64,000 bases of DNA from Streptomyces himastatinicus ATCC 53653 (GTDB lineage Bacteria > Actinomycetota > Actinomycetes > Streptomycetales > Streptomycetaceae): assembly GCF_000158915.1 (NCBI RefSeq), contig NZ_GG657754.1:7234707-7298706 (forward strand), written 5' to 3'. Within the stretch, counting starts at the first letter, position 1; the number at the start of each line of letters is the position of its first letter. Under the pieces are notes generated by a model. That model had not been told where the DNA came from. It saw only the letters and a program-made list of their open reading frames with translations, and ran no database searches. A program made the translations under genes and the position numbers. Shown one piece after another: positions 59,499 to 64,000 of the stretch.

Positions 59499-59819
59499 AT
59501 GCACTGGCTCCACCTCGCCATAGCCGTCATCTTCGAGATCACCGTCGCCATCGCAGCAGGCAAGGCCGAGGGCTTCACCAACCGCCGGTGGACCATCGCA
59601 ACTCTGCTCAGCGGTGCCATCGCGACGTACTTCCTCAGCAAGGCGCTGCTCACCTTCGACGTCGGCGTCGGCTACGCCCTCTGGACGTCCGTTGCCGGAA
59701 TCGGCATCACCGTTCTCGGTGCGCTGCTCTTCGGTCAGCGCCTGAACTGGCGCAAGGCGCTCGGGATCGCCGTCGTCATCGCCGGGGTCGTCGGCCTCCA
59801 GCTCAGCGGTGTCGCCTGA
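59499..59819 (+). CDS. Small multidrug resistance (SMR) protein, subunit 1
   Basis: A 106-aa four-helix SMR protein. The active Glu is in the first helix (LAIAVIFEITVAIAAGKAEG), as in EmrE. The pattern YFLSKALLTFDVGVGYALWT and GIGITVLGALLFGQRL is typical. AAGGA precedes ATG 59499. It forms a pump with the next gene, probably as a hetero-dimer exporting cationic compounds. Confidence 0.92.
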   Translation: MHWLHLAIAVIFEITVAIAAGKAEGFTNRRWTIATLLSGAIATYFLSKALLTFDVGVGYALWTSVAGIGITVLGALLFGQRLNWRKALGIAVVIAGVVGLQLSGVA

Positions 59820-59866
59820 GGCTCCCGCGCCACCATCCGATTCATCCCGCGAAAGGACTCACGGAC

Positions 59867-60274
59867 ATGTCCAACACCCACCCCAACTCAGCACAATCCT
59901 GGCTCATGCTCCTCCTCGCCGGAGGGTTCGAGGTCGGCTACGCGCTCTCCGTCGGCGGAAGCCATGGCTTCACCCGCCTGACGTGGTCGCTGGTCGCTGT
60001 CGTGTTCTTCCTTCTGACGCTCTACGCGCTGAGCGTCGCACTGCGCACCATCGACGTCGGAATCGGCTATGCCGTCTGGGCGGGGATCGGCGCGGTCGGC
60101 GCGGCGCTCCTCGGTCCCGTCTTCTTCGACGAGACGCTCACCCCGGCCCGAGCCGTGTGTTTGGGCGTCATCGTCGCCGGACTGGTCTGGCTCAAGCTCG
60201 CCGACAGGCCGCAGAACCCCCAGGAGCCCGTGGACGGTCCGCAGGGCGTCCAGGGGGCCGTTGCCAGGTCGTAG
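59867..60274 (+). CDS. Small multidrug resistance (SMR) protein, subunit 2
   Basis: A 135-aa SMR protein with the helix-1 Glu in LLLAGGFEVGYALSVG and LRTIDVGIGYAVWAGIGAVG. A C-terminal tail of about 25 polar residues (DRPQNPQEPVDGPQG) is longer than usual. GAAAGGA precedes ATG 59867, 47 bp after the first SMR stop. The pair resembles EbrAB/YkkCD-type two-component SMR pumps. Confidence 0.92.
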   Translation: MSNTHPNSAQSWLMLLLAGGFEVGYALSVGGSHGFTRLTWSLVAVVFFLLTLYALSVALRTIDVGIGYAVWAGIGAVGAALLGPVFFDETLTPARAVCLGVIVAGLVWLKLADRPQNPQEPVDGPQGVQGAVARS

Positions 60275-62387: not shown

Positions 62388-63395
62388 TCACGGCCCCACT
62401 TCGCCCGTGCCTCGCCGGACGAAGGCGCTGGGGACGGTGACGGTGCGCGGCGGGCGGTCGGGGGTGGCGATCCGGTCGATGGCCAGGCGTGCCGCCTGTC
62501 GGCCGACTTCCTGCGGGTCGCGGACGACGGCCGAGACGCCGAGCCCCTTGGAGACGTCGGTTTCGTCGAGTCCGATGAAGGCGAACGCGTGCTGTCCGGC
62601 GAGCCGTTCGATGAGGACACCCGTGCTGATGCCGAGGTTGAGCGCGAGGACGGCCGTGGGGGGTGACGGCAGGTCCAGCAGGCGTACGACCGCTTCGCGG
62701 GCCTGCTGAGGGGTCGTGAGGTCGCCGACCACCAGCGGCGGTTCCTCCCGGACGCCCGATTCGGCGAGGGCGCTTCGGTAGCCGCCGAGCCGCTGCGTGG
62801 CGCGGAAGGAGTCCAGGCGGCCGGTGAGTGCGGCGATGCGGTGGTGGCCGAGGCCGATGAGGTGCTGGGTGGCCTGCTGGACGGCGTGGTCGTCGTCGGT
62901 CATGACGACGTCGGCGGCCAGGTCGGCGGCGGGGCGGCCCACCAGGACGACGGGGGTGCCGTGGGTGTGCTCGGGGGAGAGGAAGTCGCGGTGGTCGCCG
63001 TCGGGCATCATCAGCAGGGCGCTGACGCGGCGGTCGATCATGGCGCGGGCGAGTTCGGGTTCCCGTGCGGGGGTGTCGTCGGTGGAACCGATGATCAATT
63101 GGAGTCCCGCGTGGCGGAGTTCCCGTTCGGCCCCGGAGGCGACTCCGGCCTGGAAGAGGTTGGTGAAGCCGGCGGTGACCAGTCCGACGGCCGCCTCGCG
63201 GCGGCCGTACCGCAGATCGCGGGCGATGGGGTTGGGCGAATAGCCCAGGAGCTGGACCTGTTCCATGACGCGTCGGCGGGTCTCGGGCTCGACGCGGGGA
63301 GAGTTCTGGAGGGTCCGGGTGACGGTCGCGGTGCTCACACCGGCCGCCTTCGCCACGTCACGGAGGGTGACGCGCTGCTCTGCCCTGCCCGGCAT
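62388..63395 (-). CDS. LacI-family transcriptional regulator
   Basis: A 335-aa repressor. GGGAGGGG precedes ATG 63395. The helix-turn-helix TLRDVAKAAGVSTATVTRTLQNSPRV and hinge LGYSPNPIARDLR are followed by a sugar-binding-type effector domain (VGLVTAGFTNLFQAGVASG ... FIGLDETDVSKGLGVSAVVR). It is divergent from a lyase gene. Three 14-bp sites fitting the LacI consensus lie in the gap, so it controls both genes. Confidence 0.9.
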   Translation of the reverse strand: MPGRAEQRVTLRDVAKAAGVSTATVTRTLQNSPRVEPETRRRVMEQVQLLGYSPNPIARDLRYGRREAAVGLVTAGFTNLFQAGVASGAERELRHAGLQLIIGSTDDTPAREPELARAMIDRRVSALLMMPDGDHRDFLSPEHTHGTPVVLVGRPAADLAADVVMTDDDHAVQQATQHLIGLGHHRIAALTGRLDSFRATQRLGGYRSALAESGVREEPPLVVGDLTTPQQAREAVVRLLDLPSPPTAVLALNLGISTGVLIERLAGQHAFAFIGLDETDVSKGLGVSAVVRDPQEVGRQAARLAIDRIATPDRPPRTVTVPSAFVRRGTGEVGP

Positions 63396-63448
63396 CGTGT
63401 GCCCCTCCCGATGTGGTGACTGGGTGTCGCTGAGCGGTTTCATCGCCA

Positions 63449-63462
63449 TGTAACCGTTGACA
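63449..63462 (+). promoter_or_regulatory. LacI operator O1
   Basis: TGTAACCGTTGACA, a dyad with a central CG and TGT/ACA ends, the general LacI-family layout. It lies 54 bp upstream of the LacI start and probably serves autoregulation. Confidence 0.65.
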
Positions 63463-63494
63463 TGCCCCGGGGCGAGCCTAACACTGAGGGCCCG

Positions 63495-63508
63495 TGTTGA
63501 CGTTTACA
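63495..63508 (+). promoter_or_regulatory. LacI operator O2
   Basis: TGTTGACGTTTACA, central CG dyad, identical to O3 20 bp further on. TTGACG inside it may be the -35 of the lyase promoter. Confidence 0.7.
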
Positions 63509-63514
63509 TGGCCA

Positions 63515-63528
63515 TGTTGACGTTTACA
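63515..63528 (+). promoter_or_regulatory. LacI operator O3
   Basis: TGTTGACGTTTACA, an exact copy of O2 two helical turns away, on the same DNA face. AACGAT (63541-63546) is a possible -10 at 18 bp from its TTGACG. Confidence 0.7.
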
Positions 63529-63562
63529 TGACGCACATCGAACGATCATGCGGAGAGTTGCC

Positions 63563-64000
63563 ATGAAGCCCCTGCTCACCGATGGCCGACTGGGCGCGAG
63601 CCCGGCCGCGGCCCTCGTCGACCACGTCAACGCCGTCGAACTGGACGACGAAGTGGCCGCCGCGGAGCACTTCGCCAAGATCGACTTGGCGCACGCCCTG
63701 ATGCTCACCCAGCAGCGCGTCTTCGCCCCCGAGCAGGGGCGGCCGCTGGTGGCGGCGCTGCTGCGCCTGCTCGACGGGGACGCCGAGAAGGTGCTCGCCG
63801 GGGACGCGGCGGTCGGCACGATCACGCTGCAACTGGAACGGCATCTGGAGGAGGAGTGCGGCCCGGCGGGTCTTGACATCCAGCGCGCCCGCAGCCGTAT
63901 CGACCAGAAGGCCACCGGCGTCCGCATGGCCGACCGGGCCGCGCTGCTGCACGTCATGCGCGAGCTGCTGCGGCTCGGGGAAGTCCTGCTGGACGCGGGC
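63563..64000 (+). CDS. Argininosuccinate-lyase-like enzyme (partial, runs off the window)
   Basis: 146 codons are visible from ATG 63563, with GGAGAG upstream; ATG 63548 is also in frame. AEHFAKIDLAHALMLTQQRV followed by GTITLQLERHLEEECG and IQRARSRIDQKATGVRMADR corresponds to the N-terminal domain of the fumarase/argininosuccinate lyase superfamily, where GRSRNDQ is the conserved signature. Here it reads ARSRIDQ, so it is a divergent member and probably not the arginine-biosynthesis enzyme. Control by a LacI repressor suggests a catabolic or secondary role. The C-terminal active-site loop lies outside the window. Confidence 0.65.
   Translation, partial: MKPLLTDGRLGASPAAALVDHVNAVELDDEVAAAEHFAKIDLAHALMLTQQRVFAPEQGRPLVAALLRLLDGDAEKVLAGDAAVGTITLQLERHLEEECGPAGLDIQRARSRIDQKATGVRMADRAALLHVMRELLRLGEVLLDAG

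Follow-up and report, generated by a model that had tools for sequence, protein, structure and literature searches.

The stretch of DNA analyzed here (the window, 64,000 nucleotides of Streptomyces himastatinicus ATCC 53653) ends in what is most probably a self-contained catabolic cassette, in which a LacI-family repressor of its own is joined by a transporter and by a lyase with the argininosuccinate lyase (ASL) fold. This reading is built on features taken from sequence, namely the pairing of the genes, operators that are conserved, an ASL fold, transporters that differ between loci and ArgH-specific residues that have been lost, and the comparison covers ten orthologous loci in Streptomyces, Amycolatopsis, Lentzea, Arthrobacter and Paenarthrobacter.

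The lacI-lyase region of the host

The features of the region are given below; positions prefixed with L009 belong to the sequence to the right of the window.

62388-63395, minus strand: gene for a LacI/GalR-family regulator, of 335 aa when read from the ATG at 63395; an ATG at 63449 opens a longer frame
63449-63462, no strand assigned: LacI-type operator O1, TGTAACCGTTGACA, read from the sequence; of the O2 type but inverted
63457-63462, inside O1: TTGACA, the likely -35 box for the lyase gene
63480-63485, plus strand: AACACT, 17 nt past TTGACA, the likely -10 element for the lyase gene
63495-63508, no strand assigned: LacI-type operator O2, TGTTGACGTTTACA, over the expected transcription start
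63515-63528, no strand assigned: LacI-type operator O3, TGTTGACGTTTACA, the same letters as O2, 20 bp on
63552-63557, plus strand: likely lyase ribosome binding site, GGAGAG, read from the sequence
63563-64000 and on past the window to L009:3766, plus strand: ASL-family lyase gene, 498 aa, with PF00206 (Lyase_1) and ASL_C2
L009:3836-5140, plus strand: MFS carrier gene, the next gene after the lyase
L009:5192-6097, plus strand: Vgb_lyase-family gene (virginiamycin-B-lyase family), 51 bp after the MFS gene
L009:6110-7078, strand opposite to the MFS gene: nucleoside hydrolase gene, following the Vgb-like gene

The first-pass annotation of this DNA had described O2 and O3 as identical and 20 bp apart, and direct reading at both positions bears this out; start to start, O1 and O2 are 46 bp apart and O2 and O3 20 bp. 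When up to two mismatches are allowed, the O2/O3 14-mer is found in the window at two places only, namely O2 and O3, and 100 dinucleotide shuffles of the window gave a mean of 0.07 matches, none of them giving 2. O2 and O3 are also the sole exact copies of the 14-mer in the 11.0-Mb host genome, where a search at up to two mismatches returned 11 matches versus 3 for a backward control. The intergenic stretch between lacI and the lyase gene carries an exact direct repeat of 16 bases; 2000 shuffles gave at most 11. One copy of the operator with a single mismatch (L003, G000:C2:8888143-8888156, G000 being the host genome) falls where an open reading frame begins, close to an allantoinase-like gene named from its translation. 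This copy is probably due to chance and was left uncounted as a target, though a second target is conceivable.

Distribution of the lyase

The lyase cassette is rare and scattered among actinobacteria. A contig scan, which may miss members lacking the exact peptide words, yielded eight close relatives with 65-75% identity to the lyase in the best segment, and the other 72 of the best 80 kept of 576 confirmed relatives are 30-37% identical; genome searches added a further close locus (G252, 85%). All genome draws are samples. The lyase is present in 3 of 392 genomes of the host genus, host included (E limit 1e-120), and in 1 of 394 genomes of a class-wide sample, that one being the host itself (E limit 1e-90). 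Samples taken around other members (E limit 1e-100) contained known members only, 2/80 in the genus of L017, 2/395 in the family of L012 and 2/24 in the genus of L016. The plasmid records held no clade member, the best place of each of the 215 matching records being below 60% identity.

Conservation of the operators and of their regulator

A question arises, is the LacI control proposed for this lyase in the first-pass annotation seen outside the host? The comparison supports it, since lacI and operators are found together with the lyase in 10/10 loci. Operators are present in all ten divergent regions, with two sites in three loci and three sites in seven, making 27 operators of 16 bp (ATGTnnnCGTTnACAT), all of which have the central CG (27/27) and match TGTNRACGTYNACA at 13 or 14 of 14 positions. 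The palindrome is even and imperfect at its inner positions. Among the five loci with an MFS-type transporter, 13 of the 14 positions of O1 are invariant, and in the intergenic regions of these five loci the invariant positions amount to 35/42 within operators versus 17/125 elsewhere (Fisher p 1.7e-16, with positions treated as independent). The variable bases of O2 and O3 are alike as well in four of the five, TTGA in G000 and G252 and TCAT in L013 and L017, while L015 differs; the O2/O3 pair looks as if it had been copied or corrected together.

Searching the ten whole genomes with TGTNRWCGNTTACA, a pattern built from the very sites that it recovers, returned 29 matches, 26 of which are the cassette's own sites, as against 4 in all for the backward control. 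The remaining three matches are located in G767 (two) and G768 (one), and O2 of L011 falls outside the pattern. The picture that these sequence matches give is that of a local regulator with a single target region.

The regulator carries the features of LacI/GalR membership, a helix-turn-helix domain and a periplasmic-binding-type effector domain (PF00356, 61.4 bits, and PF00532, Peripla_BP, 67.6 bits, both over cut-off), together with an even, central-CG palindrome near its own gene. LacI orthologs, 67-84% identical, occur in 9/9 other loci, where they adjoin the lyase gene or the ABC-A transporter genes of the lyase, and the recognition helix STATVTR is unchanged in 10/10 proteins. The pairwise identities of the lyases and of the LacI proteins correlate with r = 0.93 over 45 non-independent pairs. 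In the available text of Ravcheev et al. 2014 (PMC4052901), a CG operator centre is reported for 1173 of 1303 LacI-family regulators and autoregulation for 72%. The host locus resembles the local LacI-family regulons of that study in its even central-CG palindrome near the regulator gene, whereas its target is an ASL-family lyase, and the term 'argininosuccinate' and words beginning with 'lyase' are absent from the main text of that paper.

Probable promoter architecture and mode of repression

O1 contains TTGACA in 10/10 loci, and in all ten the loose pattern NAnnnT is found 17 or 18 nt downstream of it, at no other spacing from 16 to 19. O2 starts 5-9 bases past NAnnnT in nine loci and 15 in L011. 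A stricter consensus promoter scan of 63380-63600 called no promoter; the likely assignment of the lyase promoter is founded on position and conservation. O1 had been noted earlier as lying on the regulator side. It does stand there, but it also contains, in TTGACA, the likely -35 box for the lyase gene.

With O1 at the -35 box and O2 at the expected transcription start, simple occlusion would suffice for repression, and the layout of the sites fits promoter occlusion, looping being possible but unneeded. The first-pass annotation saw the sites as suited to looping or cooperative repression, and two features agree with action through DNA looping or cooperative tetramers, in the style of the lac operon: the O1-O2 spacing is narrow, 42-46 bp from start to start or about four helical turns in 9/10 loci (53 bp in L011), and the O2-O3 step is constant at 20 bp in 5/5 MFS-type loci. 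Yet a third site 20 bp from O2 is absent in 5/10 loci, and the extra site of L012 and L014 is placed on the opposite side of O1, 24 bp beyond it. Likewise, a LacI-type tetramer tail is not evident, because the 335-aa regulator of the host matches E. coli LacI over residues 3-278 of 360 only. We consider looping improbable, and the earlier suggestion is not supported; the positions of O1 and O2 allow plain occlusion.

Fold and substrate-site residues of the lyase

The signature motif of the host lyase reads A109-R-S-R-I-D-Q115. The first-pass annotation had pointed to ARSRIDQ in place of GRSRNDQ in an ASL-like lyase, and the motif is confirmed; the A for G at its first position is ordinary, however, being shared by 4/5 ArgH proteins of a comparison panel of five hand-picked loci out of the 72, and the true departure is the replacement of Asn by Ile. 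RSRIDQ together with KNP[IM] is found in 10/10 clade members, versus RSRNDQ together with KNPD in 72/72 other relatives (the best 80 of 576 confirmed relatives having been kept). The QEDKE block with its flanks, strictly read, is seen in 41 of these 72, with QEDK itself retained in the other 31. Three replacements are thus clade-wide (10/10), Asn113 to Ile in RSRND, Asp to Ile or Met at 291 in KNPD, and the QEDK block, which we take, by residue role, to be a substrate-site motif of ASL. Ser281, His159, Lys287, Asn289 and Glu294 are conserved, Ser281 and His159 being presumably the catalytic residues, given the roles that we assume for Ser and His in ASL.

An AlphaFold2 model of the lyase (pLDDT 86.6) has ASL and ethylenediamine disuccinate (EDDS) lyase as its best PDB fold matches, with Z of 33-36 and the next family at 28. 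The top ASL structure is that of M. tuberculosis (6ig5; Z 36.0, rmsd 2.7, 450 residues aligned). EDDS lyase matches with Z of 34.9-35.1 over 459 residues and its alignment extends to model residue 495, whereas the ASL rows stop at 462-470. In a small tree, with ArgH represented by the panel of five, the clade separates from ArgH, EDDS lyase and XcbC with full support. Deep supports within the clade range from 0.07 to 0.74, and because these branches are weak no history of transporter swaps was drawn from the tree. Judged by its substrate-site residues and its genomic setting, the lyase is a distinct subfamily of the ASL fold.

Could the lyase be a second argininosuccinate lyase, one that still cleaves or makes argininosuccinate for its catabolism or as a backup of arginine synthesis? 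It shares with ArgH the fold (Z up to 36.0), the catalytic Ser and His and 30-35% identity to the aligned ArgH rows, and its score against the NCBIfam argH model (TIGR00838) is 273.3 bits, only 6 bits below the cut-off of 279.5. Furthermore, the genuine argH of the host, a separate gene at about C2:2.10 Mb (L093, G000:C2:2100177-2101542) that adjoins an argG-like frame (named from translation), is split over two overlapping frames in the assembly, owing either to a sequencing error or to a real lesion. However, Asn113 is Ile, the KNPD Asp is Ile or Met and QEDK is replaced in 10/10 loci, all of which set lacI and a transporter beside the lyase; none of the ten has an argG-like gene in the 9.7-17 kb that were fetched for it; and just 3/392 Streptomyces genomes have the gene. 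We find this explanation very improbable, and the substrate of the lyase is probably not argininosuccinate. A role in arginine synthesis was rejected, with the score below the argH cut-off and the RSRND, KNPD and QEDK motifs changed in 10/10 loci. A catabolic role, as the first-pass annotation had anticipated, is supported by the transporter as next gene and by a separate argH that adjoins argG at another place in the genome.

XcbC of coenzyme M synthesis is likewise ASL-like, and the pXAUT01 protein that we take to be XcbC is 31% identical to the lyase. The lyase reaches 250.9 bits against the XcbC model (NF052535), far under the cut-off of 575; the active-site letters differ, and the neighbors of the pXAUT01 gene are of the coenzyme M type with a LysR gene.

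A further comparison is offered by EDDS lyase of Chelativorans sp. BNC1 (PDB 6g3d, 6rx8), an ASL-fold C-N lyase with which the C-terminal stretch aligns. According to the available text of PMC12363623, the residues near its substrate are R112, N113, Q159, N288, D290 and Y320, and a D290M/Y320M variant has a slightly reshaped pocket for bulkier substrates. The clade keeps the equivalents of Arg112, Ser280 and Asn288, whereas N113 corresponds to I, Q159 to H and D290 to I or M; the aligned row is that of the D290M/Y320M variant, the D at 290 being taken from the title of 6rx8 and from PMC12363623, and Y320 has no safe alignment. Within the catabolic reading, one substrate class to consider would then be a metal-chelating N-substituted aspartate (EDDS, an aspergillomarasmine-like compound or iminodisuccinate), with the lyase acting as an aminopolycarboxylate lyase. 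EDDS lyase being among the nearest folds, with an alignment that reaches residue 495, and the Ile/Met of the clade at the D290 position, as compared with the bulkier-substrate variant, agree with this class. Set against it are Ile at Asn113 and His at Gln159, the mere 31% identity and the sugar-type transporters, so that we hold it possible but doubtful.

Transporters and neighboring genes

Reading rightwards of the window for transport or catabolic genes had been proposed, with arginine-synthesis genes downstream counting against a catabolic role, and the gene that follows the lyase encodes an MFS transporter, no arginine gene, so that the refuting outcome named beforehand did not arise. A transporter stands beside the lyase in 10/10 loci, of three types. 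MFS carriers are found in five (G000, G252, L013, L015 and L017), the other four being 70-83% identical to the host carrier P0002. The ABC-A importer is found in three (L010, L016 and L011), with its genes between lacI and the lyase and with the lyase start overlapping the permease stop by 4 nt in 3/3, by the start codons that we chose. The ABC-B importer is found in two (L012 and L014), with its genes after the lyase. ABC-A and ABC-B proteins are 23-30% identical, the middle permease of L010 and L016 being compared through longer open frames. The lyase and MFS genes may share one transcript, although the gap between them, 69 bp in the host, is either 221 or 266 bp in G252, according to which start codon is taken. 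A scan of the coding strand over L009:3700-6150 detected neither promoter nor terminator.

Among solved structures, sequence comparison (E up to 1) relates the MFS carrier solely to a sucrose transporter and to two chains of SLC45A4, the matches spanning 51-60 residues. The binding proteins of ABC-A and ABC-B are both SBP_bac_1 and match carbohydrate-transport models, all under cut-off; their best PDB matches are Lin1841 (102 bits) for ABC-A and the putative sugar-binding lipoprotein 3vxb (311 bits) for ABC-B. Three carbohydrate-type carriers beside one lyase and LacI suggest a carbohydrate-like substrate, transporter families being a weak guide. That the same lyase-LacI pair goes with different sugar-type transporters points to a food compound rather than to arginine synthesis. 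No shared second enzyme that would explain the fate of the leaving group was seen at the loci.

An operon centered on the downstream Vgb-like lyase and nucleoside hydrolase, for streptogramin or nucleoside breakdown, would account for a Vgb_lyase gene on the same strand only 51 bp past the MFS gene, with the nucleoside hydrolase next to it, on the other strand. However, a tblastn search (E 1e-5) of the flanks fetched for the nine other loci (for L011, 2.2 kb past the lyase) gave no match to either gene, and the Vgb-like protein, at 288.7 and 284.9 bits, is far below the resistance-gene cut-offs of 600. Such an operon is extremely improbable, and the two genes were rejected as its heart since they are not conserved in the other loci. 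Homoserine dehydrogenase and aldehyde-dehydrogenase-like genes after ABC-B (L012:11022-13476, Arthrobacter) were also dismissed, as chance neighbors absent from the frames listed for L014. Elsewhere in the window, at 59499-60274 on the plus strand, there are two adjacent genes for small-multidrug-resistance-type transporters, the first identified by PF00893 and the second named from its translation.

Discussion

How would the cassette work? In the mechanism that we propose, a ligand-free LacI dimer would bind each 16-bp operator, so that the repressor would sit on the -35 box at O1, on the transcription start at O2 and on the leader at O3. Bound LacI would shut the operon of lyase and transporter, and probably also lacI, which diverges from it, until it is released by a compound that the cell has taken up or by a product of that compound. 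The transporter would import a substituted succinate, and the lyase, with Ser281 as base, would eliminate the substituent, giving fumarate, which would enter the TCA cycle, and an amine, a sugar or another leaving group. The likeliest kind of substrate is a substituted succinate, perhaps carbohydrate-like, that yields fumarate. More specifically, a sugar conjugate of a C4 acid (Amadori-type fructosyl-aspartate or glycosyl-malate, for example, the named compounds being guesses) might be imported by any of the three carbohydrate-type transporters, sensed by LacI and split in one step by the ASL-fold lyase into fumarate and a free sugar or amino sugar, a proposal that we put forward as rather unlikely. 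The literature on fructosyl-aspartate, in the parts available, concerns mostly Salmonella, and no description of such a cassette is among the matches listed in our literature searches.

With scores only slightly below the argH cut-off, members of this clade could easily be taken for arginine enzymes. For work in which EDDS lyase serves to prepare N-substituted aspartates, an ASL-family lyase with a naturally altered amine pocket would be of interest. The conserved repressor and operators offer a direct route to the substrate, as the compound that releases LacI would be the substrate itself or one close to it.
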